Part shown: positions 41,647-62,786 of the stretch, piece by piece
Position numbering within the stretch: the stretch's first letter is position 1
Layout: every line of letters begins with the position of its first letter
IMG/VR virus record: IMGVR_UViG_3300025789_001553
Location: 1-64,000 of that record
From: a virus
DNA length: 64,000 nt
Direction: 5' to 3' (one strand)
Made by a program: the position numbers and the translations under genes
The notes under the pieces: generated by a model
Told to the model about the DNA's origin: nothing
What the model saw: only the letters and a program-made list of their open reading frames with translations
The model's database searches: none

Positions 41647-41655
41647 TATAAATAT
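41647..41655 (+). promoter_or_regulatory. T4-type late promoter TATAAATAT
   Basis: A perfect TATAAATA plus T ends 5 nt before the ATG at 41661. It is preceded by a TTGATTATAATA stretch that recurs at about 25240. Start-site spacing predicts an almost leaderless mRNA. Confidence 0.7.
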
Positions 41656-41660
41656 AGCGT

Positions 41661-42428
41661 ATGAAGAAACTATTAACATTCCTCGCATTAGTATCATTAA
41701 CCGTAGCAGCTGTTGCTCAAACTGCAACAGTACTATCACCTGTTAAAGGTGTTAGCGTAAATGCTGGTTTTGATTCTAAGCTTATTGAACAAGGCGCAGT
41801 AACTGGCAACGATTATATCACTGCTGGTGTTGGTCTTGATGTATATAGCGTTGACTTAGCTGTTGAAACGTTTAGCCGTTATAATGGTTTAACGAAGTAC
41901 AGTACCGCTACAGTAGCTGGTAAATCAGTTACAACTGCAAGCACAGATGCTTCCGGTTTAAAGCGTACTTACTTAACAGCAGGTTATGTTTTTACATCAA
42001 ATCTTGCTGACCTTACATTAGGTGCACAGCTCCGCCATGCTCAAGGTACAGAAACCTTAGTTGGTGGTTTATCCAATGACACATTACCATTCGTTAAATT
42101 AAATGGTAAGCTTTTTGGTGGTGCTCTATTGTGGGACGGTATCGCTCTTGATGACACTAAGAACCGTAGCAACAACTACGAAGCAAATCTTCGCCTACCA
42201 TTAGGTGTTGGTTACGGCTTAAAAGTTGTTCCTGCAGTAGGTCTTGGTTTCAACGATCCAGGCGCAGCTACAATTGCAGCTCTTAAAGCAGACAAAAAGT
42301 ATGCATCGGCTGGTATCGGTCTTGCATTCAAGGGCTTAGAAGCTAACCTATTCGCACAACGTGGCGATGTTACAAGCTCAGCAACACAAGTTACTGGTTA
42401 TACAGTAGGTTATACCTACAAGTTCTAA
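41661..42428 (+). CDS. Secreted outer-membrane beta-barrel protein (porin-like)
   Basis: A Sec signal peptide MKKLLTFLALVSLTVAAVAQ ends in AVAQ-TAT, then a long series of alternating beta strands with Gly/Asn/Asp turns (YITAGVGLDVYSVDLAVETFSRY ... RTYLTAGYVFTS ... ASAGIGLAFKGLEANLFAQ) and a C-terminal aromatic end VGYTYKF, the usual BAM recognition signal. It would sit in the host outer membrane. It has its own late promoter and terminator. It may alter the host surface late in infection (e.g. superinfection exclusion), but this is inference. Confidence 0.75.
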   Translation: MKKLLTFLALVSLTVAAVAQTATVLSPVKGVSVNAGFDSKLIEQGAVTGNDYITAGVGLDVYSVDLAVETFSRYNGLTKYSTATVAGKSVTTASTDASGLKRTYLTAGYVFTSNLADLTLGAQLRHAQGTETLVGGLSNDTLPFVKLNGKLFGGALLWDGIALDDTKNRSNNYEANLRLPLGVGYGLKVVPAVGLGFNDPGAATIAALKADKKYASAGIGLAFKGLEANLFAQRGDVTSSATQVTGYTVGYTYKF

Positions 42429-42452
42429 TAAAACTTAGATATTAATCATTTA

Positions 42453-42484
42453 AAAACCTCTCATTTCGGTGAGAGGTTTTTTTT
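42453..42484 (+). terminator. Terminator, also able to act leftward
   Basis: CCTCTCA 42457-42463 pairs with TGAGAGG 42470-42476 with loop TTTCGG, flanked by A-run and T-run. It ends the outer-membrane protein transcript; on the other strand it overlaps the end of the convergent gene stopping at 42461. Confidence 0.9.
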
Positions 42485-42685
42485 ATGTTCAGAAATATGA
42501 AATTGCATTGCTCTATTGAGCTTATGTAAAAACTTATCTGGTGCAATACCAGCCTTTTCTTGCAATATTAGCTCTTCTTTCAGAGCTTTCAAAAAACTCT
42601 TAGACAGATTAAAATCTCGAGGATAAAAAATCCTTTTTTCCTGTCTAATCATACCGTAGCTTTCCATTAGTTCTTGAAATTTCAT
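42461..42685 (-). CDS. Small basic protein with T4-like capsid-targeting N-terminus
   Basis: From the ATG at 42683-42685 the 74-residue product starts MKFQELMESYGMIRQEKR. The first nine residues resemble a T4 internal-protein targeting peptide (MKTYQEFIAE type) with LME as a possible prohead protease site. The body is Lys/Arg/Glu-rich and helical (LSKSFLKALKEELILQEKAG). A perfect TATAAATA lies 13 nt before the start. An upstream start at 42748 is unlikely. Confidence 0.55.
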   Translation of the reverse strand: MKFQELMESYGMIRQEKRIFYPRDFNLSKSFLKALKEELILQEKAGIAPDKFLHKLNRAMQFHISEHKKNLSPK

Positions 42686-42698
42686 AAATTGTTTATTA

Positions 42699-42706
42699 TA
42701 TTTATA
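42699..42706 (-). promoter_or_regulatory. T4-type late promoter TATAAATA (leftward)
   Basis: Read leftward, TATAAATA at 42699-42706 lies 13 nt upstream of the ATG at 42685. Here the spacing would leave a leader of about 6 nt, unlike the 4-6 nt box-to-start group. Confidence 0.6.
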
Positions 42707-42797
42707 CCTACACCATGAATATACCCTATTTAAACATAAAAAATCCAAAGTTTATACTTGATTAAGTAAAAATATGGTATAACATAGTATTACACCT

Positions 42798-43295
42798 ATG
42801 AGTAAAGAAGAATACGTTAAATTACAAGCTGTTATTGCAGCTTTACAAAAAACTGTAGAAGATCAAGAAAAGATCGATGAGATTATTGAATTATTATCCG
42901 ATAATACGGTAGCTGTTGATGAAACTGCTACACCTGAACAAGCTTTAGATGAAGCTATTAACAATAACGAGGAAAATGATGGTTCAGATGAGCCTAAAGT
43001 AAAGAAACAATACGTAATGCTTGTTTCTGACACGACTGGTATTATTGATAGAGATCTTACCGGTTGGGTACTTCAAATGCCTGAAGATGAAGACGTGAGA
43101 GACGTAGTAGATTGCATTAAAAAAGGAGCTTATAATTTTAATGCATCTAAGAAGGGTCAAAAATACCCTGTTACCTCTATCGGACAAGCAATTGCTAACG
43201 TTGGTAACAAGTTTTTTAAGCCTTATAACGTGAGTATTAAGACTAAAGAACCTATTCTCATCGTTACTACTAATAACGTTTTACCTCGAGGATAA
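42798..43295 (+). CDS. Unknown 165-residue protein
   Basis: This protein is not recognised. It starts with a helix (MSKEEYVKLQAVIAALQKTVEDQEKIDEIIELL), then an acidic linker (DEAINNNEENDGSDE), followed by a compact domain: QYVMLVSDTTGIIDRDLTGWVLQMPEDEDVRDVVDCI and KYPVTSIGQAIANVGNKFFKP. It precedes the gene at 43298 by 2 nt and shares its transcript. The conserved-looking C-terminal domain may be structural, but I have no evidence. Confidence 0.5.
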   Translation: MSKEEYVKLQAVIAALQKTVEDQEKIDEIIELLSDNTVAVDETATPEQALDEAINNNEENDGSDEPKVKKQYVMLVSDTTGIIDRDLTGWVLQMPEDEDVRDVVDCIKKGAYNFNASKKGQKYPVTSIGQAIANVGNKFFKPYNVSIKTKEPILIVTTNNVLPRG

Positions 43296-43297
43296 AT

Positions 43298-43495
43298 ATG
43301 TCAGGAAAAGGCTCAAAACCACGTCCTTTTTCGGTTTCTCAAGATACATTTGGAGAAAATTGGGACAATATCTTTAAAAAGAAGCAGCCTGATCACGATA
43401 AACATATGGCTGCTACTGATTGGTCCCAAATGTTAGGTGAATTACCGGAAGATTACAATAAAACCAAGAAAAAATTAAAAAAACTACCTGGGTAA
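43298..43495 (+). CDS. Unknown 65-residue protein
   Basis: A short charged protein (MSGKGSKPRPFSVSQDTFGENWDNIFKK ... TDWSQMLGELPEDYNKTKKKLKKLPG) with no family match. GAGGATAAATATG before its start is one of the few sites with a possible Shine-Dalgarno (AGGA) and at the same time holds a GATAAATA box. It overlaps the convergent GT11 gene by 12 nt. Confidence 0.45.
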   Translation: MSGKGSKPRPFSVSQDTFGENWDNIFKKKQPDHDKHMAATDWSQMLGELPEDYNKTKKKLKKLPG

Positions 43496-44326
43496 TATGA
43501 ATCCAGTCGGGTCATAAACCGCTGGACATATTTTCCACCCTTCACAGTACACATCTTTTGGGTCATATTCCCTTAAGATGTCAGGACCAAACCAAACCCC
43601 AGGAGCAATAACTGTTTTGTTGGGGTTTTTTGATAGATAAGCACCCCACCAGGTGAAAGTTGAGTTAGAAATTACAAAATTTTGACATAATGACAAGAAC
43701 CAAAGAGCTTTATACGGTTCATATTCTACAAAAACTGTGTTTGGAAACTTAATATTCTCTCTACACCATGGAATATCATCGCTTACTACAAAAATTGTAT
43801 CAACTTTTGGTAGCATTTGGTATGCTTTCTGCAAATAACCAGCAGTAACTACTGGATGACGTGTGGGAAATGTTAAAAAATCACCTCTACGTACATTAAT
43901 TACAGCATTTGTACCGTTTACTAATTGAGGATATGTGCGTGTAGCTTCTTCAATAAACTCTTGAGTAGGCCCGAACAACTGTTTTACATTTTCTGAATGA
44001 TCTTTAAAGAATTTTTCACTTTCAAAGTACCCTCTAAACACGGTTGGTAGTGTGTCATGTGGTTTATATTCAGTATAATGATATGTTGAATTTATCGTAT
44101 GCACTGCAGGTGTAGCATCTGGTGCTTTAGGTATAATAAAATCTAATTTGCGATGTACAGTGTCGTAGTAGTCACTTGTAGATGTTTCTGCATAAGGTAA
44201 AACTAACTGTCTATTATGTCTTAATGACTGTGCATATGCATTAGCAATTTGAAACATTTGATTACCTAACCGACCTATCAATGTACAGGTAATATAGTTT
44301 GAAGATAAATTTAAGTTTTCGTTCAT
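43484..44326 (-). CDS. Family 11 glycosyltransferase (alpha-1,2-fucosyltransferase type)
   Basis: The 280-residue product shows IGRLGNQMFQIANAYAQSLRHN at the start, AVINVRRGDFLTFP near residue 137 (HxRRGDY-type motif, here NVRRGDF), IFVVSDDIPWCRENI, and ISNSTFTWWGAYLS near the C-terminus. These are GT11 hallmarks. It differs from the GT11 at 13086 in many positions, so it is a separate acquisition or old duplicate. It is the last gene of the leftward sugar island. Confidence 0.88.
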   Translation of the reverse strand: MNENLNLSSNYITCTLIGRLGNQMFQIANAYAQSLRHNRQLVLPYAETSTSDYYDTVHRKLDFIIPKAPDATPAVHTINSTYHYTEYKPHDTLPTVFRGYFESEKFFKDHSENVKQLFGPTQEFIEEATRTYPQLVNGTNAVINVRRGDFLTFPTRHPVVTAGYLQKAYQMLPKVDTIFVVSDDIPWCRENIKFPNTVFVEYEPYKALWFLSLCQNFVISNSTFTWWGAYLSKNPNKTVIAPGVWFGPDILREYDPKDVYCEGWKICPAVYDPTGFILPR

Positions 44327-44333
44327 TGTATTA

Positions 44334-45008
44334 TTAAAATTTCTTAACTATTGGGGACTTTATAAAGTTTGTCTCCCAATGATCTGTGGTAGGCGCAAAA
44401 CCGTTTATATCTAAATCGCTTGGACTTTGTCTTTGTATTACCGATAACGGGTAAACCACGTATTTGTTGAGTTCGCCTCGCTCACCAAGCCATGTATCAA
44501 CAGGACAATGAAAATGTGGATCATACTGTAAGAACATTTTTAGTCCTTTTCTGTTAAACCCTGTAGCATGATTAGCTAATATATGCTCACACTTAAGTAA
44601 ATTTTCTGACACTTGTTGTACAGGATTATCAAACACATAGCAGCCTAAATAGATTGTATCCCAATCCGGAAAATTTTGTAATTGATCTAATGCATTCTCT
44701 ATATTCTTTAATGAATTAGCATTATAAAATTGTGCATCATCTTCAAGTATTAAAAATCGTTCATAACCTTCTTTTTCTGCTTTTTTAAATATATTTGCAA
44801 ATGTTTCACCACAATAATTGTGAACCATTCTCATGCCCTCTTCTGTAGTAGTATCTTTTACTATAGCTTTTGCATCTATACCAGGCACGCGCTCAAAAAA
44901 GCCTTGAAGGCCGGCATCTTTTACTTCCTTTTCAAATAAAGTTCTTCTATCTGCTCTACGATCAAGATTTATATAATAACCTTTTTGAAAAAATTCATTA
45001 ATTTTCAT
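44334..45008 (-). CDS. Family 25 glycosyltransferase, tandem copy 3
   Basis: The 224-residue product begins MKINEFFQKGYYINLDRRADRR, the GT25 N-terminal pattern (INLDRRxDR), with ERFLILEDDAQFYN (EDD metal site) near residue 85 and DWDTIYLGCYVFD further on. GT25 enzymes include LPS galactosyl/glucosyltransferases. Three copies lie head to tail with 1-nt gaps and share the first residues almost exactly. It is about 10 residues shorter than its neighbours at the site region TTEEGMRMVH. Confidence 0.85.
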   Translation of the reverse strand: MKINEFFQKGYYINLDRRADRRTLFEKEVKDAGLQGFFERVPGIDAKAIVKDTTTEEGMRMVHNYCGETFANIFKKAEKEGYERFLILEDDAQFYNANSLKNIENALDQLQNFPDWDTIYLGCYVFDNPVQQVSENLLKCEHILANHATGFNRKGLKMFLQYDPHFHCPVDTWLGERGELNKYVVYPLSVIQRQSPSDLDINGFAPTTDHWETNFIKSPIVKKF

Positions 45009-45009
45009 A

Positions 45010-45705
45010 TTAAAACATTTTTACTAAACGAGGTTCAAGTAACTTGTATGCTTCTTCCCAGTGTGATAAGCCAGGCGCTCTACCAAACGCATCGATGTCA
45101 CTCTCCCCGTCTTTTTGCACTACTGCCATCGGATAAACAAAATACTTGTTCATAAATTTTTGCTGACTCAACCACCCATCAAATATTGTTTGTAAAGTAT
45201 GATCGTATCTTTTTAATAGTTTAGGTATAACCTTCTTGTTATAACCTATAGCGTGTGTTGTTAAGAGTATATCCGGTTTTAAAAGGTTTTCTGATACATG
45301 TTTTACTTTATCATCTACTACGTAACCACCGAAGTATACCATGTCCCAGTCTGGGAAATTTTGCAATTGATCCAATGCTTTTTCTACTATCTGTAAAGCT
45401 GGTTCAGAACCGTTATTATAAAATAGCATATCATCTTCACATATTAATACACGTTCATGTGGTTGTTCGTTAATCTTTTTAAACAATTCGTATACCGTTT
45501 CACTAAATGCAGCACCTTTATGTACATGTGCTGGTTCATGCACGTACATTGGATACTCTCTTGTTAAGTAGTCAATACCTGCAAATCTTTCAAACCAACC
45601 GTCAAGGTTAATTTTTTTAGCTTCTTCTTCGAACCCCGCTCTACGCTCAGGACGACGATCAAGATTTATATAATAACCCTTTTGAAAAAATTCATTAATT
45701 TTCAT
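45010..45705 (-). CDS. Family 25 glycosyltransferase, tandem copy 2
   Basis: The 231-residue product starts MKINEFFQKGYYINLDRRPERR. The metal/nucleotide site is ERVLICEDDMLFYNNGS; the centre keeps FPDWDMVYFGGYVVD and HAIGYNKKVIPKLL, and the end has GESDIDAFGRAP. It is flanked by two paralogues, so it arose by tandem duplication. The 1-nt gap to the next copy implies translational reinitiation. Confidence 0.85.
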   Translation of the reverse strand: MKINEFFQKGYYINLDRRPERRAGFEEEAKKINLDGWFERFAGIDYLTREYPMYVHEPAHVHKGAAFSETVYELFKKINEQPHERVLICEDDMLFYNNGSEPALQIVEKALDQLQNFPDWDMVYFGGYVVDDKVKHVSENLLKPDILLTTHAIGYNKKVIPKLLKRYDHTLQTIFDGWLSQQKFMNKYFVYPMAVVQKDGESDIDAFGRAPGLSHWEEAYKLLEPRLVKMF

Positions 45706-45706
45706 A

Positions 45707-46390
45707 TTACGGTTTTATTATTTTAAATTTTGAATAGCAATCTAACCAATGCTTAATGTCCGGTGATTTACCGAAAGCATCAATATCGCTTTTACCTTCT
45801 CTTTGAGCTACTGCTAATGGATACACAATATACTTAATTATGTTCTTCCTGGCAGCTATCCACTCATCATATATACAATCATGTCCAGGTACATATTGTA
45901 ATAGTTTTTCAAATACTTTTTTATTATATCCAACTGCATGAGCAGTCAGTATATTATCTGCTTTAAGTAAATTTTCAGATACTTGTACACCGGGGCAATA
46001 TTTTAAATAACCACCAAAATATATCATGTCCCAATCAGGAAAATTTTGTAATTGATCTAATGCTTTTTCAACTAATTGTAAACCTGTTTCCTGTCCATCA
46101 TTATAAAATAATATGTCATCTTCGTATATTAAAACTCTTTCATAACCGCTTTCATTCGCTTTTTTGTAAGCATTATAAAAAGCTTCCCCACAAGCCATTC
46201 CTTTGTTTACATATGATGGTTGATTGATAGCATTAGGGTATTGACGGGTAGATACATCAATACCGGGTACACGTTCAAAAAAACCTTCAAGACCTATCTG
46301 TTTTACCTCTTGCTCAAATTGAGCTTTTCGATCTGTTCTGTAGTCTAAATTTATGTAATAACCTTTTTGAAAAAAATCATTAATTTTCAT
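45707..46390 (-). CDS. Family 25 glycosyltransferase, tandem copy 1
   Basis: The 227-residue product starts MKINDFFQKGYYINLDYRTDRK and keeps ERVLIYEDDILFYNDGQ, FPDWDMIYFGGYLK, HAVGYNKKVFEKLL and GKSDIDAFGKSP, the same motif order as its paralogues. Copies 1 and 2 are closer to each other than to copy 3 by eye. A terminator-like hairpin at 46416-46437 separates it from the upstream GT-B gene. Confidence 0.85.
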   Translation of the reverse strand: MKINDFFQKGYYINLDYRTDRKAQFEQEVKQIGLEGFFERVPGIDVSTRQYPNAINQPSYVNKGMACGEAFYNAYKKANESGYERVLIYEDDILFYNDGQETGLQLVEKALDQLQNFPDWDMIYFGGYLKYCPGVQVSENLLKADNILTAHAVGYNKKVFEKLLQYVPGHDCIYDEWIAARKNIIKYIVYPLAVAQREGKSDIDAFGKSPDIKHWLDCYSKFKIIKP

Positions 46391-46415
46391 TTAATATTTT
46401 ATTACAAAATTTTAT

Positions 46416-46437
46416 AAAAACCACGGCGACGGTTTTT
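46416..46437 (-). terminator. Terminator-like hairpin (leftward)
   Basis: Read leftward, AAAAACC pairs with GGTTTTT (7 bp, loop GTCGCCGT), ending in a T-run. It may end or attenuate transcription from the GT-B gene into the GT25 genes. Confidence 0.6.
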
Positions 46438-46442
46438 ACACA

Positions 46443-47624
46443 TTAAGATGTGAGTGAACCAATAAATTCAGCCCACATGTTGCCCACCTTAGCTGGGTTA
46501 AATTTATCTAAAATAAATTTTGTACCTTCAGCGCGTACTTTTTCTTTTAAATCTGGATTAGCTTCGAGGTAGTTTACTGCATCAATAATTTTTTTAGTAT
46601 TATTTTTAAATGCTCCTTCAGTATCTTTAGTTAAAGATTCTTTTTGTATAACATTAACATCTTTACCGTCAGGTAATTCAACCCACTTACAGAAACCTTC
46701 GAAATTTTCTGGTAATGCACCGAACGGGTAAGTTACGGGTATAGCGCCTAATGCAATTGCTTCAGCAACTACACATGAGAATGTGTCTTTATGCACATCC
46801 TGATAAGGTGTATATAAAGGATATATAAAATACTCACTTTCTGCTATATGTGTAAATAGTGTTTTTCTATCTACCCCATCATGCTTATAAAAGAATTCAT
46901 CCTGGTGAGGGTGCGTACATAATAGATAGTCAAAAGCGTGTAGTTCAACATCAGGCCAGTTTAATTCTCTTGCAACTTGTATAGCTACATCACCACCACG
47001 CGCCCATGCTGCATGAAACACAATCTTATGCTTTTTTCTCTCTGGTTTACTATTTAGTACTTCGCTAACTACGTCATCCATTATCGGGTTAGGAATTAAT
47101 GTACTTAAAGTACCAGGATAACGAGTTTTAGCACTTGCTACAGTACCCTCATTCATTGACTTTTCCCACTCAGAAATATTAACAAACCCTAACTTTAAGT
47201 TATTGTCATTAGCATAATTAATAATTTCATCAATACCATATATCCATTGCATATGGTTCCAGTATATTAATGCTTTAGTAACTTTTATCGGTAGTTTTTT
47301 ATAATCATGAAACCAAAGACTACTAACTAACACGTCAAACTCTTTATTTTCAATATTAGTAAAGTCAATATCGGTATAGTATACACCTCTTACTTTTTTA
47401 CCTTGATTGAAGTGAATACCTTTTTCAGCGTACTCAGCTTCAAGTCCAGGTTCAAGCTTATCAGAAGTAACAACAACTTCATGACCTTGCAAAGCCAATT
47501 GCTCAGCAACTATGATGGTGCTTCCGTCTGTACCAGAACCACCACCGTTACCATAACGAAGAGTTTCTCCGTCTAAGTAGTTACTACGCCGACTGTTACC
47601 GATTAAGATGAATGCTATTCTCAT
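46443..47624 (-). CDS. GT-B glycosyltransferase (GT4-like)
   Basis: The 393-residue product has an N-terminal donor-domain motif MRIAFILIGNSRRSNYLDGETLRYGNGGGSGTDGSTIIVAEQL with a Gly-rich loop, then EVVVTSDKLEPGLEAEYAE, VLVSSLWFHDYKK, and a C-terminal half with HAAWARGGDVAIQVARE and KDTFSCVVAEAIALGAIPVTYPFGALPE (the E-x7-E donor loop). GT4-type enzymes transfer sugars from nucleotide donors. A TAAGTAT box lies 4 nt before its start, so it may be transcribed late. Confidence 0.82.
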   Translation of the reverse strand: MRIAFILIGNSRRSNYLDGETLRYGNGGGSGTDGSTIIVAEQLALQGHEVVVTSDKLEPGLEAEYAEKGIHFNQGKKVRGVYYTDIDFTNIENKEFDVLVSSLWFHDYKKLPIKVTKALIYWNHMQWIYGIDEIINYANDNNLKLGFVNISEWEKSMNEGTVASAKTRYPGTLSTLIPNPIMDDVVSEVLNSKPERKKHKIVFHAAWARGGDVAIQVARELNWPDVELHAFDYLLCTHPHQDEFFYKHDGVDRKTLFTHIAESEYFIYPLYTPYQDVHKDTFSCVVAEAIALGAIPVTYPFGALPENFEGFCKWVELPDGKDVNVIQKESLTKDTEGAFKNNTKKIIDAVNYLEANPDLKEKVRAEGTKFILDKFNPAKVGNMWAEFIGSLTS

Positions 47625-47628
47625 TTAT

Positions 47629-47635
47629 ATACTTA
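47629..47635 (-). promoter_or_regulatory. TAAGTAT box (leftward)
   Basis: Read leftward, TAAGTAT lies 4 nt before the ATG at 47624, overlapping the stop of the preceding gene. Confidence 0.4.
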
Positions 47636-48931: not shown

Positions 48932-48939
48932 AAAAGTAA

Positions 48940-50090: not shown

Positions 50091-52046
50091 TCAAGCTGCA
50101 GGGCCGTTTGGATCTTGATTAAGGTTACCACCAGCTGAATTCCAATGATTGGATGGAGTAGTTGCAGATACTGCAGTGTTTGGCCCGTTCACTAATGATG
50201 CATTTGTTTGTAATGTAGTAGGATCAGCAACCAGTGTTAGTGGTATGTTTTTAAAGTAATGGGTATGAGACTGGTTAATAACTAAACGTATAGTATCGCC
50301 ATACTGTACATTACCACCTGTACCACCACCTGGTTTAAATATTTGTGCTCCGTTATCAGTTATTTTTGTAGATTCGGTAACTTGAAATTCTACAGGTGCT
50401 GTAACATGCTGCAAGTAAGTTTCACCTTTAATATATGTACCGCCCCCTACAACCACATTTTGACTTACACCCAGATTGTCATCAATAACTACTTGTTGAC
50501 GGTTACGTGTTCTTAAAGTCATTAAATTAGCTATTACAGAAAGATTAGTACCACCATCAATATTAGTATCATCTGATGATGCTATATTAATCTGTTTACC
50601 AGCAATTGCCATTATAGTACCACCCAAATTAACCGGGCCAGTAGTTTTAATATCTATACCACCAGAGCCCACTAATAAACTATATCTATTACCAGCGGTT
50701 ACTGTATAGTTACCACCAGGCATATCGTCGATGTGTGTATACTCTATAGCGGGTATTGTAGTGGCTGATAACCCCGTATTATTAAAATATTCCGTTACAG
50801 TTTTGTTTGTAGCATTATACCTGGTGCTATTAAATTTGTTAAACACTAAGCCGACGTTAACCAATTTGTGCTTGGTAATTGTCTCTATATAATTACCACC
50901 CTCCCCGAGTTCAGCTTCTGCTACAGCCATTATAGGGGTTTGTGTTGCTACTATATTCGTTAAATCTCCAGATTTACTACCTTCGTTTTGTGTTAAATAA
51001 TCGGCTACAGGAGCATAAGCACCTAACCAATCGTTCATAGCAGATTGCTTTAAACTACCCGCTTTAAGGTAAAAATTACCTTGTATATTATTATCAAAGT
51101 CTCTACCCACAAATAAATTATTATGCCCGTATACAGTTTCAAATTTATCTTTTAATGTAAGATACTGTACATTTTTAGGGCTAAATAAGGAATTGTATTT
51201 GTTATTAAACTCTAAGAAACCACCAGCAAAGTGTGTAACTTTAAATGACTCTCTATCTGTAGTGTTTATAATTTCTATAGCAGCACCGCGTTGATTGATA
51301 ACCATTTTATTACGGTAGGTCTGGGTGTTAAAGTCTTCTACATTTCTTATATTTTTACCGTTGCTTTCAAAAGTTTGCGGGTAGTCTTGATATGTACCGT
51401 CATCAGATTGAAATATACTTGCAAAATCGTCCTGCCCTAAAGACGTACCCATGTATACAGGGTAGGTTGGCATACCGTCTCTAAAAAATACCCAAACCTG
51501 TGCACCTACCTTTGGTACAGCAAAAACACCTTTAGCTGCGTTAGAGTAGGTAGAAGGTCGATACTGAGTACCGGTCGGGTTTACTTTACTTGTGTTATTT
51601 GTAGCTGTATCTGTAAAAGCATCTGTAACTCTAAAATTGTATTTTTCGTATACAAAACCAGGCTTTTCGCCCATTTGTTCTGTATTTAAATTAAATTGAG
51701 TATACGAGTTCGAAAAATTTGTACCAGATAAACTATAAGGAAATTCTGCGTCTGATACAGTCGACTTGTCTCTAAAAGCATTATAAGTACCTGAAGCGTT
51801 TTCTCCCATTATTGGGCTACATTGTTCTGCCCAAGGTAAAGAGTCTTTTAATTCATTTATAATTAAACTTAAATCTGAATTTATATTAATACCAGGAAAC
51901 TTAAAGTTGCGGTCCTGCTTTAAAGCAGCCCACTTATTGTAAACATTTGCATTTACATGAGGTACCCACACCTTGACTCTGCCTCTGTATTCAGGGTCAT
52001 TATTTTGTACTACTATACCAAGATATGTTGAAGAAAAGTTTTTCAT
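50091..52046 (-). CDS. 5: Baseplate central spike, gp5-like, without lysozyme domain
   Basis: The 651-residue product begins with an OB-fold hub module: STYLGIVVQNNDPEYRGRVKVWVPHV, with LPWAEQCSPIMGENASGTYN near 75-95, then KVGAQVWVFFRDGMPTYPVYMGTS (second OB piece). The C-terminal half has many repeated Gly/Asn/Thr strands (GGNYTVTAGNRYSLLVGSGGIDIKTTGPVNLGGTIMAIAGKQINIAS), the expected trimeric beta-helix needle. No lysozyme motif is seen between, unlike T4 gp5. Lysis activity instead may come from the gene at 6131. Confidence 0.78.
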   Translation of the reverse strand: MKNFSSTYLGIVVQNNDPEYRGRVKVWVPHVNANVYNKWAALKQDRNFKFPGININSDLSLIINELKDSLPWAEQCSPIMGENASGTYNAFRDKSTVSDAEFPYSLSGTNFSNSYTQFNLNTEQMGEKPGFVYEKYNFRVTDAFTDTATNNTSKVNPTGTQYRPSTYSNAAKGVFAVPKVGAQVWVFFRDGMPTYPVYMGTSLGQDDFASIFQSDDGTYQDYPQTFESNGKNIRNVEDFNTQTYRNKMVINQRGAAIEIINTTDRESFKVTHFAGGFLEFNNKYNSLFSPKNVQYLTLKDKFETVYGHNNLFVGRDFDNNIQGNFYLKAGSLKQSAMNDWLGAYAPVADYLTQNEGSKSGDLTNIVATQTPIMAVAEAELGEGGNYIETITKHKLVNVGLVFNKFNSTRYNATNKTVTEYFNNTGLSATTIPAIEYTHIDDMPGGNYTVTAGNRYSLLVGSGGIDIKTTGPVNLGGTIMAIAGKQINIASSDDTNIDGGTNLSVIANLMTLRTRNRQQVVIDDNLGVSQNVVVGGGTYIKGETYLQHVTAPVEFQVTESTKITDNGAQIFKPGGGTGGNVQYGDTIRLVINQSHTHYFKNIPLTLVADPTTLQTNASLVNGPNTAVSATTPSNHWNSAGGNLNQDPNGPAA

Positions 52047-52858
52047 TACGCGCTTAATGTAATTGTAGTAAGTTGTACTTGATTGCCGATAGTAGTGTTA
52101 GTTATATCGACTGTTATTGTTGTATCCCCAATAGATGTTGTATCTTCATATTGTATTTGAGTTGACCAATAGTATGGTACCATAAGATTACCTACTATTA
52201 TATTATTGAAAGGTAAAAACGGACTTAAAACCGGGTATGTACTGTTTATAACAGTTTGTATGGTACTATTAGAAACAATTCTTCTATTCAAATCCGTATC
52301 AGCCATTATTAGATTACCGTTATTAGGGTTTGTATCTGTACCTGTTGGACCTATGTTAGCTATATTTGCTATAAAAATGTTGTTAGCTACTGTGTAAAAA
52401 CTCTGTATTGCCCTGGATATTCCTGTAGGTAACAAGTTATCTATAATAGTATTATAAGGTACTGTACGAGTATTATTTAAGTTATTAGTATAGGATATAT
52501 AATACAAGCTACCAACTGATTCGGAAAACTTTTGATAGTAAGAAGGATATTGTATAGTTATAGCACTTAGCACCAAACTATTAGAGTAATACATTGCTTC
52601 ATCCCACCAATACTTGCCCCACAATAGCGGTAAACTATCAATAGTTGTACCACTTAAAGAAAATGAAAGATTAGTGACATCACTCCCGGCTAACTGAGCA
52701 AAAAAATCAATTTGAGAACCTATAGGGTTAGATGAGTACTGAGCTATATAATAACTCTGTGCTACATTTAGTTGAGTAGCAAAATCAGGTACCGTATACC
52801 CATTCCAATAAAATGTGGTATTATATAGATCAAATGTCTTTACAACTGATGTTGCCAT
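52046..52858 (-). CDS. Unknown baseplate-region protein
   Basis: The 270-residue product is not recognised. It is rich in Tyr, Ser, Thr and Asn (TTFYWNGYTVPDFATQL; SFSLSGTTIDSLPLLWGKYWWDEAMYYSNSL), typical of tail structural proteins, and the C-terminus has repetitive Thr/Ile strands. It lies between the gp5-like and gp27-like genes and overlaps gp5 by 1 nt. A TAAGTAT box lies 5 nt upstream. Confidence 0.55.
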   Translation of the reverse strand: MATSVVKTFDLYNTTFYWNGYTVPDFATQLNVAQSYYIAQYSSNPIGSQIDFFAQLAGSDVTNLSFSLSGTTIDSLPLLWGKYWWDEAMYYSNSLVLSAITIQYPSYYQKFSESVGSLYYISYTNNLNNTRTVPYNTIIDNLLPTGISRAIQSFYTVANNIFIANIANIGPTGTDTNPNNGNLIMADTDLNRRIVSNSTIQTVINSTYPVLSPFLPFNNIIVGNLMVPYYWSTQIQYEDTTSIGDTTITVDITNTTIGNQVQLTTITLSA

Positions 52859-52863
52859 TTATT

Positions 52864-52870
52864 ATACTTA
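52864..52870 (-). promoter_or_regulatory. TAAGTAT box (leftward)
   Basis: Read leftward, TAAGTAT lies exactly 5 nt before the ATG at 52858, as with the perfect late boxes. Confidence 0.5.
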
Positions 52871-54794: not shown

Positions 54795-56207
54795 TTAACT
54801 TTCAGAAGTAGTAATGTTTATATTATTACTTGGATCTGCATTTGATAAAAATGTATTACGTGTGTTGAGCAGTACACTCGAAAAAATCAGACTTACTTTA
54901 TACGCTTCAGGTATCATTTTAATATAGGGGTCGTTACTTGCAGTTCCCGCTACTTCACCGGTCTTAACATTTATATATCTTACATTACCTACATTTTCAA
55001 TATTAATGCCGCTTAAATATGCTAAAGGTATGTTTTTATAGCCAGGTATATCAATACCATATAAGCATGGTGCATCTAAGAAATTAATGCCTTTTCTATT
55101 AGGTAAATTTTGATATGTTATAAGATAGCAAAACTCCCAGTTTTTTTGTATTTGAGTTACATCATCACCATGATCTATAGTGTTATATAGATAAAATTGT
55201 ACCTGTACATCTTCTCTTCCAGATGCGCCGTTAAATGCATATAACTCTTCTTTTTTAAGGGTGCCTGCTTGAGTGCCTATTATAGATTGTGCTAAGCCTC
55301 GAGTTATATTTGTTGCACCGGTTAATACACCTATACCTTTTCCAATAGGGGACTTTTTAGCTTTATCTTCAAGCTGTGCGCTTCCACTTTCTCCTGACAC
55401 GCTTTCTTCAGTAAGCGCATCGATAATTTGCCCCACACCACTGGCAGTTTTTTGTAAACCTTTTAGTATATCTCCATTACTACTACCCCAACTGTTTCCA
55501 ACCTTCACCATATTTGCATTGGTGTAGTAAGGTAAAGCATATGTGAACCCGGTTTTTGCTACAGCATACAAACCTTGATAGGGTGCAAATGCAGTAGTTA
55601 AATTGTACGGAATCTTTTTCGTGGGGTCTGTTTTCGCAGAATCCAACCCTGCAGTATCTGGTAAAGTTACAGCTTTACCGGCTGCACTATTACCAAACAG
55701 AGAGTTAGTAAAATTTTTTAACTGTGTAACGCCGATATTACCGGCTACTGCAATATTATTAATCTCACCACGAAGGCTATACAAATAACCGCGTAACTCG
55801 CTTGATTGAGTTTGTTTATATTCTGTTAAAATAACTTTAGGGATATGCTTTCTACCTTCTCGTTTTGTTAGTGTCCAATCGAAATCATCAAATACGTTTA
55901 TAACAGACTGTATAGTATTATTACCACTACCGGTTGAGTTACTACCAGTCTTACTGTTATTATTAGTAGCTGGTTTTAGTACTGGTGCACCTAACTCATC
56001 ATCAGGAGCTCCCCACGTAAACAACAATGGTTCATAATTAGGTTTCTGGCTTCCTGTAGGTGGTGGTGGCTCGGGCTTAGCAACCGGGGTGTTTACCATA
56101 TTAACATTTGCATTGTACATTAAACCACCACCTATAATTGAACCACCGGTATTTACAGTGGGGTTAGTGTTTGTAGTATTGCTACCGCCTGGGTTGTAGA
56201 AAGCCAT
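54795..56207 (-). CDS. Baseplate tube cap-like structural protein
   Basis: The 470-residue product has a Gly/Asn/Pro-rich N-terminus, a central helical portion, and a C-terminal block with QVQFYLYNTIDHGDDVTQIQKNWEFCYLITYQN and IPEAYKVSLIFSSVLLNTRNTF. The latter resembles the end of T4-type gp48 tube cap or baseplate tube-associated proteins (PxAYxVxxxxxSLLxxTRN). It follows the tape measure gene by translation overlap. gp48 assignment is tentative. Confidence 0.5.
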   Translation of the reverse strand: MAFYNPGGSNTTNTNPTVNTGGSIIGGGLMYNANVNMVNTPVAKPEPPPPTGSQKPNYEPLLFTWGAPDDELGAPVLKPATNNNSKTGSNSTGSGNNTIQSVINVFDDFDWTLTKREGRKHIPKVILTEYKQTQSSELRGYLYSLRGEINNIAVAGNIGVTQLKNFTNSLFGNSAAGKAVTLPDTAGLDSAKTDPTKKIPYNLTTAFAPYQGLYAVAKTGFTYALPYYTNANMVKVGNSWGSSNGDILKGLQKTASGVGQIIDALTEESVSGESGSAQLEDKAKKSPIGKGIGVLTGATNITRGLAQSIIGTQAGTLKKEELYAFNGASGREDVQVQFYLYNTIDHGDDVTQIQKNWEFCYLITYQNLPNRKGINFLDAPCLYGIDIPGYKNIPLAYLSGINIENVGNVRYINVKTGEVAGTASNDPYIKMIPEAYKVSLIFSSVLLNTRNTFLSNADPSNNINITTSES

Positions 56208-58129
56208 TATAGTAATCCTCTCGCGTAAATCATATTATGTCTATACTTACTACGCTCAATGTAAGGTATATCTCTACTTGAGTTTTCTACATTAGCCTCT
56301 ACGTTGTTTACATTAGAAGCATTATTAACAATAGTAGCTGTAGAGTTTTTAGATGAATTTATACTTTGCTGTGAAGCAGCTAATGGTTCAATAGAACTAA
56401 TTAACGTATCTATCTTTTTCATCAGCTTATCGATATTTTCAGTTTGTACTTTAATGACCGGTAATTCATTTATTTCTTTAGCTTCAGATGTATTAACAAC
56501 ATTACCTAATTTTGCAGCTTCGGTAACCGCTAATTTTGTAGATACTAAAGATACAGGCATTGCAGGTCCAGCATCTGTCGTTATAGAAGGTATATTGGCA
56601 CCTTGTACAGAGGTTTGATTGTTAGTAGCAGAAGCTCTTATAATAGGTGCTGTAACCGCTAAAGCGGCAGTAACAGCTAATAGCTTTATTAAATTAACAC
56701 TATTAATTGTATCAACGAACCTCTTTAATGGATCTAAATTTATACTTAAATCTCCAAAAGATGATAAACTTTGCTTAAATGCTGTAATACTATTAGTAAC
56801 TCTATCAATATTATCTGCCTGTTCCCCTATAGCTACTAATTGATCTAAAGGAGATTTTTGGCCTGATATTTTGCTAAATAACCCACCAACAAAATTACCT
56901 ATACCAGCTATAGCTGTACCTGCTCCGAACCCGGCTATAGCTAAACCAAGCGCCCCTATTGCTACACTTACTTCTAATATTTTTAAAGCAGAAATACCTG
57001 CTAATTCCTTTAATTGATTGGTAAACGTGGTTAGTGGTTTGCTTATTGCTGCCATACCCACACTTAAAGGCACTAATGCAACCCCAAGTACACCAAGTGC
57101 AATAGCCCCTGGTATAATAAATTCTGAAACCAATCCTAATACAGCAGCTACCGCACCTAAACCAAGCAATGCAACAAAGCCTTTTCCGATTGTTTCCCAA
57201 TTAAGTTCTGCAAATGTTTTAAGACCTTTACCTGCAAGCCATAACGCTCCCCCGAGAGCTGCCACTGCTGCAGCACCTACAATCATTTCTAAAGAAGAAC
57301 CAGCTAACAACTTAGATGCTCCAATTAAACCTATTAAAGCAACCGATCCTTTAGCGATTGATGTCCAATCTACTAAACCAAACTCTTGAAACCCTTTTGC
57401 AGCAGCATATAATGATACGCCTAATATACCTATAGTAACTGCTCCTTTCATAGCATCAGTATCACCGAGTTTTTTAAGACCGTCACTTAGCTTACCCAAC
57501 CCACTACCTATTGCACCCATTATACCAAGACCAGCTCCAGTATTAGCGGAAGCATTTGCAGTTGTTGGGGTACTGTTTACTGAAGTTGTAAATACTTTTT
57601 TAAGTGCTTCAAGTGCTTCTGGTTGTATTGTAGCCAGGCTTATTGGCTGTACTTGTACTTCTTTTAGTGCTGCTTCTTCTGCTGAAACACCACCACCAAC
57701 ACCCGCGCCTATCGCATTTGAAGATACGTTTTCTAATTTTTCTGATAAATTACCGAACAGTTCTTTTTGATCTCCATAAGACTTAGCATATCGTTCTTTA
57801 TGTTTTATTTCTTCTTGATTATATGCTTCACTGTTTTTATACTCTGTTTTGTCGTATTTTTTAATAACGTCAATTAGAGTTTTTTCTAAATTAGTTCCAA
57901 GCTTAGCACTTAATGAATTTAAAGCTTGTGTTTGTAATACCGATTGCTCTAATTGGTCTTTATTATTTAACTCCGCACTTTTAATCAATACATTAATTCG
58001 ATTGTTTAATACATTGGAATTTTTTTCCATTGCATCCAGCCACTTCTGTGGTATAGGGCCAGTTTCTTTAGGCCTTAATGCTGCCATTAAAGATGTAAGA
58101 AATCCCGGGTCGGCTGATTGATCTGCCAT
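56207..58129 (-). CDS. 29: Tail tape-measure protein, gp29-like
   Basis: The 640-residue product has a helical N-terminal part, then a long Ala/Gly/Leu-rich hydrophobic middle (about 210-440) with repeated ALGxAL-like stretches (IVGAAAVAALGGALWLAGKGL; GALGLAIAGFGAGTAIAGIG) and a charged C-terminus. This is typical of a tape-measure/hub protein; T4 gp29 has 590 residues. Protein length would set tail length. It lies among baseplate genes in the expected region. A TAAGTAT box lies 6 nt upstream of the start. Confidence 0.78.
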   Translation of the reverse strand: MADQSADPGFLTSLMAALRPKETGPIPQKWLDAMEKNSNVLNNRINVLIKSAELNNKDQLEQSVLQTQALNSLSAKLGTNLEKTLIDVIKKYDKTEYKNSEAYNQEEIKHKERYAKSYGDQKELFGNLSEKLENVSSNAIGAGVGGGVSAEEAALKEVQVQPISLATIQPEALEALKKVFTTSVNSTPTTANASANTGAGLGIMGAIGSGLGKLSDGLKKLGDTDAMKGAVTIGILGVSLYAAAKGFQEFGLVDWTSIAKGSVALIGLIGASKLLAGSSLEMIVGAAAVAALGGALWLAGKGLKTFAELNWETIGKGFVALLGLGAVAAVLGLVSEFIIPGAIALGVLGVALVPLSVGMAAISKPLTTFTNQLKELAGISALKILEVSVAIGALGLAIAGFGAGTAIAGIGNFVGGLFSKISGQKSPLDQLVAIGEQADNIDRVTNSITAFKQSLSSFGDLSINLDPLKRFVDTINSVNLIKLLAVTAALAVTAPIIRASATNNQTSVQGANIPSITTDAGPAMPVSLVSTKLAVTEAAKLGNVVNTSEAKEINELPVIKVQTENIDKLMKKIDTLISSIEPLAASQQSINSSKNSTATIVNNASNVNNVEANVENSSRDIPYIERSKYRHNMIYARGLL

Positions 58130-58135
58130 ACTTAA

Positions 58136-58142
58136 ATACTTA
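58136..58142 (-). promoter_or_regulatory. TAAGTAT box (leftward)
   Basis: Read leftward, TAAGTAT lies 6 nt before the tape-measure ATG at 58129. A 7-bp inverted repeat AGGTACT/AGTACCT (58142-58157) overlaps its upstream edge. Confidence 0.5.
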
Positions 58143-58163
58143 GGTACTGAAGTACCTTAAGGC

Positions 58164-58976: not shown

Positions 58977-59005
58977 ATATAGATTTATGGTGCGTTGATA
59001 GGTTA

Positions 59006-59965
59006 TCAAGTAAACTCACTTGGAGAGTTCTTTCCTGTATCTAACGGCATACCATTGAATCCAGGAACGGACGTATCTCTACTCTTACTTCCAGAGTTAG
59101 CTTCTGATTGCTCTTTTTCTGCTTGCTGTACAAACAATGTCCAATATAATAATTGTTCAGCTGGTGTAATACTATCTACATATTCCGGTGTAAAATTAGC
59201 CTTGCTGATTAAATTTAAATTTATTTTATACAAATTTATTAAATCATCATTAAAGATTAGTTTACAAAATTCCAACAATACTTCAGTATTGGTCGACACC
59301 GACAGGTTTACAACATAGCTACCTGTATAAGGTGATTTAATAGATAGAAGCTTTGTGTCAGCAAGCGAATCTTCGACACGTGTTAATGATTTGTAAACCT
59401 CTGTAGCTAAAGTTAGTGGTAGTTTTTCAACGAGCTCTATTCTTTCTGAAAAAGTTAAACCTTTAAACGATAAAAACTTTTCGTTAACAGTCATACTATC
59501 TATACAAGAGGCTAACTGATAACTAAACATTTTTTCGGGTTCTATGTTAATAAAATTAATTTCGTCTATAGCCTTTACTATACTGTGGTTTATAGTTATG
59601 TTATTAAAAGTAACTGATTTATTGTAATGTATATTACCAAGTTTAGCTACCAAGTCTTCAATTTTAATAATATATTCAAACTTTTTCTTGGTATCGTTAC
59701 AAACAGCTTCTAATTTAAGATCCGGACTTATACAGACTGATCGTATATTAAGCAATAGTATGATCTTATCTACAACGTTAAGTCCGTCCAGTAATATCCC
59801 GGGAGAAACGTGTTCAACTACTTGGTTTAAATGGTGTAAGAACTCTGTTGTATCATTGTTATAAAGGGATTTAACTAAGTCTTTATATAACTTAGCATTA
59901 ACCTCTTTTACCCAGATTTTCTTATAATTAAATCCAGGTAACTTAATTCCATACGTAAAAGCCAT
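59006..59965 (-). CDS. Baseplate hub assembly protein, paralogue of the next gene
   Basis: The 319-residue product starts MAFTYGIKLPGFNYKKIWVKEVNAKLYKDLVKSL, like the opening of gp26-type proteins, and contains LTFSERIELVEKLPLTLATEVYKSL, which aligns with LSFAKRHALLEKMPNSIIQDVLKYM of the next gene. Both then have similar size and beta-rich middles. A duplication is the likely origin. The C-terminus is polar (SGSKSRDTSVPGFNG). Confidence 0.58.
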   Translation of the reverse strand: MAFTYGIKLPGFNYKKIWVKEVNAKLYKDLVKSLYNNDTTEFLHHLNQVVEHVSPGILLDGLNVVDKIILLLNIRSVCISPDLKLEAVCNDTKKKFEYIIKIEDLVAKLGNIHYNKSVTFNNITINHSIVKAIDEINFINIEPEKMFSYQLASCIDSMTVNEKFLSFKGLTFSERIELVEKLPLTLATEVYKSLTRVEDSLADTKLLSIKSPYTGSYVVNLSVSTNTEVLLEFCKLIFNDDLINLYKINLNLISKANFTPEYVDSITPAEQLLYWTLFVQQAEKEQSEANSGSKSRDTSVPGFNGMPLDTGKNSPSEFT

Positions 59966-59985
59966 TATATTGACTTACTATGTAG

Positions 59986-60891
59986 TTATTTTTTACCAGC
60001 TTTAACATTGAAACCGTTAACAAGACTATTGTTATAATTATTTAACATTGTATTATTATAATCTAAAGGTGTCTTACCAGGGTTGGCAGCAGCATTATTA
60101 ACGTTTGAAATAAACGCATTATTTGCAGCCGGAGTTTTGTTTGTAGTGGCTGGTGCAGTAACAGGTACGTTACCTGATTGATTTGGGTCGTAAGATATTC
60201 TATAATTATTAAATACAAACCTCACACCTTCTATTCTTGCATCAGATTTACCATACGCATATGATGATTCGTTAATTGAAACAGGGGCACAGGCGTTAAA
60301 TTTAAATACTCTTCGAATACCTGCATTTGTTTTATTATCATTTTTATCGAAATGATATACCGAAATAGGTATTTTTACATTTTGTAAAGAAGTAGAAGCA
60401 CGAGAAATTAAACCATAATGGCCCACCAGCGTAATCCATGGACGTATTACAAAGTCAATAAATGATTTATTAGTTTCTAAAAAGCTAATAGTTAATTCAC
60501 TGTATTTAATACGCATATTCGTGGTTACCCCTCCCACTAAACCACCTGCAGGGCCTAATAGAGGGTCTGTTCTTTCTACCCCTACACTCTCTCCTGGTAT
60601 GTTAATTCCATTAGCAAATAAACATATTTGACCGCCAGCTGGACCATGTACTTGATTTTGTATTTCTTGTATTAAAGCACGGCTGACGTTTTTAACGTCC
60701 CAATTTTCTTCAAAATTTACCCATGGGTTTGCTTTTGAGTCTGTAAACACTGGGGGTAAACTTTCAAAATGTATAAGAAAGTTTGAATCAACCGGTATTT
60801 GAGTGTTAGGGTTGCTTAAAAATTTTACAAACATGTCAACTTCGGACATGTTGACTTGATTGTTTGCCTTTGGCCCTATTATGTTAGCCAT
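59986..60891 (-). CDS. Tube/baseplate junction-type protein
   Basis: The 301-residue product has MSEVDMFVKFLSNPNTQIPVDSNFLIHFESLP, then GGQICLFANGINIPGESVG, the segment RIKYSELTISFLETNKSFIDFVIRPWI and SYAYGKSDARIEGVRFVFNNYRISYDP. The strand pattern and RPW-type core resemble the tube fold seen in gp54/gp48-type junction proteins. It follows three tube-like genes. The T4 name (54 or 48) cannot be decided. Confidence 0.5.
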   Translation of the reverse strand: MANIIGPKANNQVNMSEVDMFVKFLSNPNTQIPVDSNFLIHFESLPPVFTDSKANPWVNFEENWDVKNVSRALIQEIQNQVHGPAGGQICLFANGINIPGESVGVERTDPLLGPAGGLVGGVTTNMRIKYSELTISFLETNKSFIDFVIRPWITLVGHYGLISRASTSLQNVKIPISVYHFDKNDNKTNAGIRRVFKFNACAPVSINESSYAYGKSDARIEGVRFVFNNYRISYDPNQSGNVPVTAPATTNKTPAANNAFISNVNNAAANPGKTPLDYNNTMLNNYNNSLVNGFNVKAGKK

Positions 60892-61562
60892 TATCTACCC
60901 CCTAAACCACCAATTAAACTATTAATAGTTTTATTGACAAGTTTGTTAGCGACATTACCTACTGCCCCGCCGATCGACCTACCAAAATTGTTACCTAAGC
61001 TCAATCCAGACGCAACACCTGAATCAGGTCCTGTTGTCCAGTACTGATATGCAATAGATGCACCAACTTCCTGTATACCACCTGACTTCGTTAAGTCATA
61101 TGCAATATCATCAATTTTAGTAATGAACGCACCTAATAATGTGTATACTTTAATTTCATTCAACGTATCATCGATTAATGATAATCTAATTATGTTGCTA
61201 TTTAAATCTCTTGGTTCCATATTACCTACAGATTGATTTTCATCAAACGTATTAGTCATAGAATCTTCTAACATTGATCTTAAATTGTAATCTTGTGTGC
61301 AATAAAACTTAACTGCCCAATTTGCGTTGTCAAACTTTACAGTGCCCGGTATTTGAAAATCTAACCCCATAAAAGGAGCAGTAGTCGTGTTAATTGATTT
61401 ACCAGGAAGGCTTGCTGTTTTTAAAAACACTAAATCAGGATCTTCAAGCTGTACACCATTAACATTAAACGTGGTTATTCTGAATTGAAAATCACGTGCA
61501 AATCCAACATTTGTTGCCTGTTGGTAAAAATCTGCTATTGTTTGTCCTGTTACTGATGCCAT
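60891..61562 (-). CDS. Tail tube-fold protein, third copy
   Basis: The 223-residue product shares the tail-tube pattern with the genes at 61580 and 62250: QTIADFYQQATNVGFARDFQFRI at the start, GMDF-like GLDFQIPGTVKFDNANWAVKFYCTQDYNLRSMLED in the centre (strands around residues 60-95), and VGASIAYQYWTTG near the end. The tail differs (Gly-rich SLGNNFGRSIGGAVG). It could form a baseplate-proximal tube ring. A TAAGTAT box lies 4 nt upstream of its start. Confidence 0.72.
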   Translation of the reverse strand: MASVTGQTIADFYQQATNVGFARDFQFRITTFNVNGVQLEDPDLVFLKTASLPGKSINTTTAPFMGLDFQIPGTVKFDNANWAVKFYCTQDYNLRSMLEDSMTNTFDENQSVGNMEPRDLNSNIIRLSLIDDTLNEIKVYTLLGAFITKIDDIAYDLTKSGGIQEVGASIAYQYWTTGPDSGVASGLSLGNNFGRSIGGAVGNVANKLVNKTINSLIGGLGGR

Positions 61563-61566
61563 ATAT

Positions 61567-61573
61567 ATACTTA
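61567..61573 (-). promoter_or_regulatory. TAAGTAT box (leftward)
   Basis: Read leftward, TAAGTAT lies 4 nt before the ATG at 61562. Confidence 0.5.
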
Positions 61574-61579
61574 TGTTTG

Positions 61580-62176
61580 TTATGTCAATATATCTTCTGA
61601 TGTCATATACTGAAAACCGATAGTTGCAGTTAATTTTGCTATATCTGCCCCTGACTTTGTTTCATATGTTATAGTACCAGTATTCTGTAAAAATGCTCCA
61701 ACTAAAAAGTATTTACGTATTACTTGTGGTTCTGTTGAGGCATTACTTCCCTGAAACAAATTACCTGAATTAGAAAGCAAGTTTAATTCAATTTTACAAT
61801 CCCACCAATTAGGTTTTTGTGATACGGAAGTGTGCTCATTAAATGTATCTACAGACCATTTCTCTAAAACATTTCTTAATATATAATCTCTATCACAGTA
61901 AAAAGATACATCCCAACTACCGGCAGCTTCAGGATAGCTTGCTACCATTGGTATGTTGTATTTAAAGGACTTAAAATCAACAGTTGTAGTGCTAATAACA
62001 CGAGATGGTACTTTACCGTCTTGAGCATAAAGAAATAAATTATCTGTGTCAGACGAGGGCTTATATACATCGTCTGCTCCGTTCCTTGTAATTGCATTTA
62101 TTCTAAACAAGTTAGTACGAGCAAATCCGCGCTTAGTAGCGGTTTGATAAAATGAGGATATACCCGTGTTTGCCAT
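61580..62176 (-). CDS. Tail tube-fold protein, second copy
   Basis: The product starts MANTGISSFYQTATKRGFARTNLFRINAI (ATG at 62174-62176; another ATG at 62177-62179 is two nt from the upstream box and is less likely). It keeps the tube pattern: KSFKYNIPMVASYPEAAGSWDVSFYCDRDYILRNVLEKW, and ATIGFQYMTSEDILT at the end. It follows the main tube gene after a terminator, so it has its own promoter (TAAGTAT, 5 nt before the start). Confidence 0.72.
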   Translation of the reverse strand: MANTGISSFYQTATKRGFARTNLFRINAITRNGADDVYKPSSDTDNLFLYAQDGKVPSRVISTTTVDFKSFKYNIPMVASYPEAAGSWDVSFYCDRDYILRNVLEKWSVDTFNEHTSVSQKPNWWDCKIELNLLSNSGNLFQGSNASTEPQVIRKYFLVGAFLQNTGTITYETKSGADIAKLTATIGFQYMTSEDILT

Positions 62177-62181
62177 CATTA

Positions 62182-62188
62182 ATACTTA
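62182..62188 (-). promoter_or_regulatory. TAAGTAT box (leftward)
   Basis: Read leftward, TAAGTAT lies 5 nt before the ATG at 62176 and downstream of the terminator at 62201, as needed for fresh initiation. Confidence 0.55.
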
Positions 62189-62200
62189 ATGTATAGACAT

Positions 62201-62229
62201 AAAAAAAGCCCTGTTTTTAGCAGGGCTTT
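62201..62229 (-). terminator. Rho-independent terminator after the tail tube gene
   Basis: Read leftward, AAAGCCCTG pairs with CAGGGCTTT (loop CTAAAAA-type) and ends in a seven-base T-run. It lies 21 nt after the tube gene stop and before the next tube-like gene. Confidence 0.9.
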
Positions 62230-62249
62230 GTATATTAAAGCTTTATAAC

Positions 62250-62774
62250 TTATACGTGTCTCCAGTATTGGAAAGCTAACTTAACCGTAAATGCTTCTGT
62301 TGGTTTACCAGCACCAGCATTATCATAACCAATTGAGCCAATAGATACTGGATATACACCGTATAGTTTATAGGTGTTAAGTACGTTTTGACTTTCATCG
62401 ATTAAATCAAGTTGAATTAGTCTATCTGGACCGCGTAGTGAGAGGTTACCAGTGCTTGTAGCATCGTCAAATACATTGTTAATTTGCCAATCTTCAAGCT
62501 TTTTACGAATAACGCCTTTAAGGTCATTATAGAACTTAACTTCCCATCCTTCTGAACCTGTATAATCAACTGTACCAGGCACATTGAACTTTAGTCCCAT
62601 GTAAGGTACCTGTTGGTTTTGAATTGTACGGTCCGGAAGATTTTTTGTTGTGATATAAACGAAATCATCTTCGTTGAACGTATCTTGACCAATCGAACGC
62701 ACTCTCATCATGAAATCACGAGCGAAACCGCGTTCTTGTGCTACCCTGTAGAAGTCTTGTATTGTCTGTGCCAT
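62250..62774 (-). CDS. 19: Tail tube protein, gp19-like
   Basis: The 174-residue product (T4 gp19: 163) begins MAQTIQDFYRVAQERGFARDFMMRVRSI and has NLPDRTIQNQQVPYMGLKFNVPGTVDYTGSEGWEVKFYND in the centre and EAFTVKLAFQYWRHV at the end, the compact strand pattern of the contractile tail tube. It follows the sheath gene with a 20-nt gap that includes a TAAATAT box 5 nt before its ATG, and it is followed by a terminator, which suggests high, separate expression. Confidence 0.88.
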   Translation of the reverse strand: MAQTIQDFYRVAQERGFARDFMMRVRSIGQDTFNEDDFVYITTKNLPDRTIQNQQVPYMGLKFNVPGTVDYTGSEGWEVKFYNDLKGVIRKKLEDWQINNVFDDATSTGNLSLRGPDRLIQLDLIDESQNVLNTYKLYGVYPVSIGSIGYDNAGAGKPTEAFTVKLAFQYWRHV

Positions 62775-62779
62775 GTTAA

Positions 62780-62786
62780 ATATTTA
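62780..62786 (-). promoter_or_regulatory. Late-type box TAAATAT (leftward)
   Basis: Read leftward, CTAAATAT ends 5 nt before the tail tube ATG at 62774, in the short sheath-tube gap. Confidence 0.55.

Follow-up and report, generated by a model that had tools for sequence, protein, structure and literature searches.

Late-promoter-like boxes next to start codons in a T4-like phage, with predicted leaderless or near-leaderless virion mRNAs

IMG/VR record IMGVR_UViG_3300025789_001553 is an 82,476-base fragment of a T4-like phage with a contractile tail, known only from metagenomes. We analyzed bases 1–64,000 of this fragment (the window), using the full 82 kb for record-wide counts. The element in question is a short box, TAARTAW (R, A or G; W, A or T), that lies a few nucleotides upstream of a set of start codons. 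The window (66% AT) encodes a family B DNA polymerase, a DnaB-like helicase, a UvsX-like recombinase, and gp32-like and UvsY-like proteins, and it carries tail tube, tape-measure and hub genes. It also encodes a gp55-type late sigma factor, as an initial annotation of the sequence had proposed, and a gp45-type sliding clamp (Table 1); in T4, the clamp is a co-activator of late transcription. A gp55 gene is likewise found in a relative, G004 (122.7 kb). A search of annotated phage DNA with the box region gave zero matches, and the best annotated matches of the tail tube protein encoded at 60891–61562 include one from Pelagibacter phage Mosig that shares just 30% identity.

The initial annotation listed ten boxes ending 4–6 nt before start codons, and all ten are present (start codons were set by rule, as the first ATG within 40 codons). 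Both boxes described as the perfect T4 late element, TATAAATAT at 6117 and 41647, were confirmed on the plus strand. Most of the others do read TAAGTAT (at the genes starting at 34951, 47624, 52858, 58129, 61562 and 62176), the exceptions being TAAATAA at 7463 and TAAATAT at 62774. The open reading frame (ORF) at 34951, of 64 aa, is the least certain gene among the ten. The list was incomplete, omitting boxes at other distances within the window, before the starts at 35126 (gap 8, where the gap is the number of nucleotides between box and start codon) and 56207 (gap 35). Searching the rest of the genome for the motif, as had been suggested, turned up boxes before further starts beyond the window, with mixed spacing: 65152 (gap 19), 65793 (7), 66928 (11), 67998 (8 and 12), 68572 (12), 79387 (12) and 80354 (5). 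Several virion genes lack a box of their own.

Table 1. Boxes and related genes. The gap is the distance in nt from box to start codon; SD, Shine–Dalgarno element.
Feature	Position	Strand	Gap	Downstream gene or remarks
TATAAATAT, perfect T4-type late box	6117-6125	+		lysozyme-like gene 6131-6745 (Pfam Phage_lysozyme); upstream sequence identical in G004
TAAATAA	7469-7475	-	5	gene 7086-7463; G004 has TAAGTAA at this site
gp55-type late sigma factor gene	10699-11259	+		phrog_234, E=3e-17
gp45-type sliding clamp gene	31588-32322	+		phrog_223, E=1.4e-8
TAAGTAT	34938-34944	+	6	64-aa ORF 34951-35145; TAA of the box doubles as the upstream gene's stop codon
TAAGTAT	35111-35117	+	8	GTG of gene 35126-35521; kept in G004
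TATAAATAT, perfect T4-type late box	41647-41655	+	5	gene 41661-42428 (predicted secreted protein); kept in G004
TAAGTAT	47629-47635	-	4	glycosyltransferase gene 46443-47624; TAA of the box doubles as the upstream gene's stop codon
TAAGTAT	52864-52870	-	5	gene 52046-52858; in G004, TAAGTAA with gap 5
TAAGTAT	56243-56249	-	35	gene 54795-56207; SD-like GAGAGGA; leadered contrast case
TAAGTAT	58136-58142	-	6	tape-measure gene 56207-58129
TAAGTAT	61567-61573	-	4	tail-tube gene 60891-61562; conserved in relatives
TAAGTAT	62182-62188	-	5	tail-tube gene 61580-62179, which opens ATGATG (from 62179); gap measured to the second ATG (62176)
TAAATAT	62780-62786	-	5	tail-tube gene 62250-62774; gaps 4-10 in relatives
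Tail sheath gene	62795-65152 of record			

TAARTAW occurs at a gap of 4–6 at 12 of the 99 ORF starts of the record. When the 60-nt upstream regions were dinucleotide-shuffled 400 times, the mean was 0.76 and the maximum 5. At gaps of 2–13 the count is 25 starts versus 3.2 by shuffle (maximum 10), and at gaps of 14–53 there is no excess (7 starts versus 10). Among non-start ATGs, 7 of 2359 have the box at a gap of 4–6 (Fisher, 4e-13). The motif is depleted window-wide, with 90 copies found versus 169 expected, so it is the position that is special. In a genome of this AT content, TAA stop codons near starts might generate the motif by chance, and the TAA is indeed a stop codon in 2 of the 10 listed cases (34938 and 47633) and in several weak cases in the replication block. 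Yet neither the shuffles nor the non-start ATGs reproduce the enrichment, the motif is globally depleted, and orthologs keep it; chance is thus an extremely improbable explanation. We also considered whether the box arises as a side effect of upstream stop codons and rejected this, as it holds for only two of the ten boxes.

Across 301 non-redundant upstream regions from the clade (the main counts exclude near-identical ones), an unbiased 6-mer count ranked TAAATA as the most start-enriched and TAAGTA as the second. TAACTA and TAATTA were much rarer near starts, indicating that the preference for A or G at the fourth base of the box is genuine. When the 40 nt preceding each of 89 non-redundant boxes were compared, no informative position, whether a –35 or a Bacteroidetes-type –33 element, was seen. 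A T4 late promoter comprises an 8-bp box about one turn before the start, with AT-rich sequence downstream and no –35 element, and in phage Aeh1 a late-box variant at –13/–12 is known (PMC2988020). The window phage resembles T4 in these respects: it has a –10-like 8-bp box similar to TATAAATA, no –35 element, late virion genes behind the box, and genes for both gp55 and the clamp. The T4 TA at –13/–12 is not conserved in the boxes of this clade. The box would then be a variant of the T4 gp55-type late promoter with consensus TAARTAW, in which this TA is lost and –8 is A or G. The earlier suggestion that TAAGTAT is a variant late box agrees with these features, in that it looks gp55-type and marks virion genes.

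The distribution of boxes follows gene class. In the window phage, TAARTAT within 2–13 nt of the start was found for 9 of 27 genes in the virion block versus none of the 31 replication-block genes (p=4e-4), and in G004 the corresponding values are 6 of 25 and 0 of 31 (p=0.005). Tests that pool relatives overstate independence, because these phages share ancestry. A different view of the box would be that it is a translation-initiation context, AT-rich and Kozak-like, for a host whose initiation is SD-independent, rather than a promoter. This would suit a clade that is AT-rich and SD-poor, and the box does sit where ribosome signals sit. But replication genes, which also need translation, lack it. 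Moreover, it is conserved at greater distances elsewhere, 19–22 nt upstream of the sheath gene and 35–39 nt upstream of the gene after the tape measure (54795–56207; 37–39 nt in relatives, with an SD usually present). It also matches the T4 late box, and the same box stands 5 nt before start codons in Pelagibacter phage HTVC008M, whose other genes use SDs. We regard a purely translational role as quite unlikely.

Box and spacing are kept in orthologs at 62–82% protein identity. At the tube gene starting at 61562, TAARTAW gaps are 4–9 in relatives down to 62% identity; at its paralog starting at 62176 the gap is 4–5 in every relative covering it, and at the tape-measure gene it is 5–8. The 8-mer occupies –13 to –6 when numbered as in T4 (PMC2988020), so an ATG 5 nt downstream has its A at +1 (a TAARTAW gap of 4 equals 5 on the 8-mer scale). 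In the window clade the commonest distances from 8-mer to ATG are 6 (24 genes) and 5 (14 genes), and a shoulder spans 9–13. For the class with gaps of 4–6, the first T of the box lies 11–13 nt before the ATG. In bacteria, a –10 box with its first T ∼12 bp ahead of the start codon is a sign of a leaderless mRNA (PMC3160421), and our placement of the start point follows the same logic. The TA-led leaderless genes of Actinobacteria and Deinococcus-Thermus show a similar distance, but they have sigma-70 Pribnow boxes, whereas the box here is gp55-type.

From the sequence evidence, we consider it probable that these boxes are gp55-type late promoters that give rise to leaderless or near-leaderless mRNAs. 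RNA polymerase bearing the phage gp55 would bind the box with no need of a –35 element and start transcription ∼6 nt past the last core A. A box ending 4–6 nt before the ATG would then set the 5′ end at the A of the AUG or 1–2 nt earlier. With the promoter start at or near the AUG, the mRNAs would be leaderless or nearly so and would be translated without an SD, by ribosomes recognizing a 5′-terminal AUG. Late genes with a box 7–20 nt away would have short leaders, and the gene with a box 35–39 nt away would have a leader, usually with an SD. The initial annotation predicted leaderless late mRNAs throughout. This stands for the modal spacing, which predicts a leader of 0–2 nt, is conserved in relatives and occurs in HTVC008M too. 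It fails as a blanket claim, since the box lies at 4–6 nt in some late genes only and at 7–13, ∼20 or 35–39 nt in others.

Several observations weigh against reading the boxes as gp55-type promoters of leaderless mRNAs. On the 8-mer scale the clade's modal gap is 6, not 5, and gaps of 9–13 nt are frequent, such that predicted leaders of 1–8 nt are as common as none. The tube gene box is degenerate in one relative lineage (58% identity), and gp33 was not identified (small ORFs were not scanned for it). Strong SDs occur in 2 of 90 genes with a box at 5–13 nt, an absence partly forced by the box itself: the box fills the SD window, making the contrast partly mechanical. The clade is also SD-poor generally, with a strong SD in 12% of box-less genes, so within the window the lack of an SD is by itself weak evidence.

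A further alternative accepts the gp55 promoters but holds that initiation is shifted relative to T4, or that late mRNA is mainly leadered and polycistronic from upstream, with little leaderless mRNA made. The late genes are tightly arrayed in a single direction, and some are box-less, which makes read-through likely, and some boxes overlap the upstream stop codon. On the other hand, the spacing is exactly 5 nt at gp48 of HTVC008M and its relatives down to ∼41% identity, and a strict 4–5 nt at the tube paralog. Such conservation points to selection on distance and not only on the box, and we judge this alternative unlikely.

For comparison, we looked at boxes in other T4-like phages. In T4, TATAAATA lies mostly 14–28 nt from the ATG and is accompanied by an SD, whereas TAARTAW in the window clade lies mostly 5–13 nt from the ATG with almost no SD. 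Boxes are 16–48 nt from the ATG in C48C1, and exact boxes are at 20–34 nt in Vibrio phage phiKT1024 and 20–43 nt in Campylobacter phage F355. The 5-nt spacing is absent from cyanophage S-H34, whose boxes lie at 17–32 nt. Across T4 and these Vibrio, Campylobacter, cyanophage and C48C1 comparators, boxes are mostly 14–48 nt upstream, mostly with an SD.

The arrangement recurs in HTVC008M, a Pelagibacter isolate. Here, TATAAATA or a version with one mismatch lies exactly 5 nt before the ATG of virion genes at 18916, 18943, 19456, 31132 and 49760. Most virion genes with a 5-nt box lack an SD; other genes have the box 18–30 nt away, with an SD, and the SD-led genes include those at 36520, 46310 and 69453. 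HTVC008M keeps TAAATA and an SD-led form, in contrast to the R variant and SD-poor state of the window clade. The 5-nt spacing at gp48 is found in all examined relatives, from 95% to ∼41% identity. Most gp48 orthologs at ∼32–35% identity have the box at 20–28 nt, usually with an SD-like AAGGATA; one of this class (L122) has it at 5 nt, with a less certain start codon. In Pelagibacter phage Mosig, the 5-nt arrangement was seen at one examined gene only. At 18890–18960 of HTVC008M (L055), the late boxes of the divergent genes gp2 and gp4, TATAAATA and TCTAAATA, overlap on opposite strands, each ending 5 nt before its own ATG, and either promoter overlaps the region of the other.

In the non-redundant set of pelagimyophage genes, the gap is exactly 5 for 18 of 33 boxes. 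Strong SDs were found in 0 of 26 genes with a gap of 5–8, compared with 5 of 7 at gaps of at least 14 and 66 of 160 box-less genes (p=9e-5 and 8e-6). The arrangement therefore occurs in phages that otherwise use SDs, and does not merely reflect a host that ignores them.

A review (PMC3594737) documents leaderless middle and late mRNAs in Thermus phage phiYS40. The likeness lies in middle and late phage mRNAs without a leader, but phiYS40 belongs to another phage group, a gp55-type box is not known there, and host translation factors shift. Translation of leaderless transcripts is spared by kasugamycin (PMC5230787). No paper describing leaderless late mRNAs in T4-like phages, or the 5-nt arrangement, was found in the open-licence literature searched. 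No phage-encoded ribosomal protein S21, a potential translation aid, was found in five records.

More tentatively, some lineages of the T4 superfamily may have moved gp55 late promoters onto the start codon, such that some virion mRNAs are leaderless and others SD-led. Late virion synthesis would then depend on a 5′ AUG, possibly as a late translational switch favoring phage mRNA. T4 late transcription is a textbook system in which mRNAs are leadered and SD-led. If the proposal is true of whole T4-like lineages, including phages of SAR11, a very abundant group of bacteria, leaderless translation would carry part of virion production. A published effort at late-promoter prediction in pelagimyophages was unsuccessful (PMC7029224), and promoters abutting start codons might explain this failure. 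The box also gives a rule by which transcription units and start codons can be located in T4-like genomes from uncultured phages.

Some neighboring genes deserve mention. Four tail-tube-like paralogs (phrog_45) lie in one module, three of them consecutive (window 60891–62774 and record 65209–65793, both on the minus strand), and each has its own late box. The protein encoded at 41661–42428 (+) has an N-terminus resembling a signal peptide, matches nothing in Pfam or PHROG, and is possibly outer-membrane-like; a search of bacterial genomes with this secreted-type protein, made to assign a host, found no relative. The protein encoded at 42798–43295 (+) gave a weak, sub-cutoff match to sigma-70 region 1.1 (PF03979) and could be transcription-related. 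Three tandem paralogs (44334–46390, –) share the N-terminus MKIN(E/D)FFQKGYYINLD, and the one tested matches glycosyltransferase family 25. Beyond the window, record positions 70682–76090 (–) encode a protein of 1802 aa with SGYSGWSG-type repeats, adjoining tail-fibre genes.

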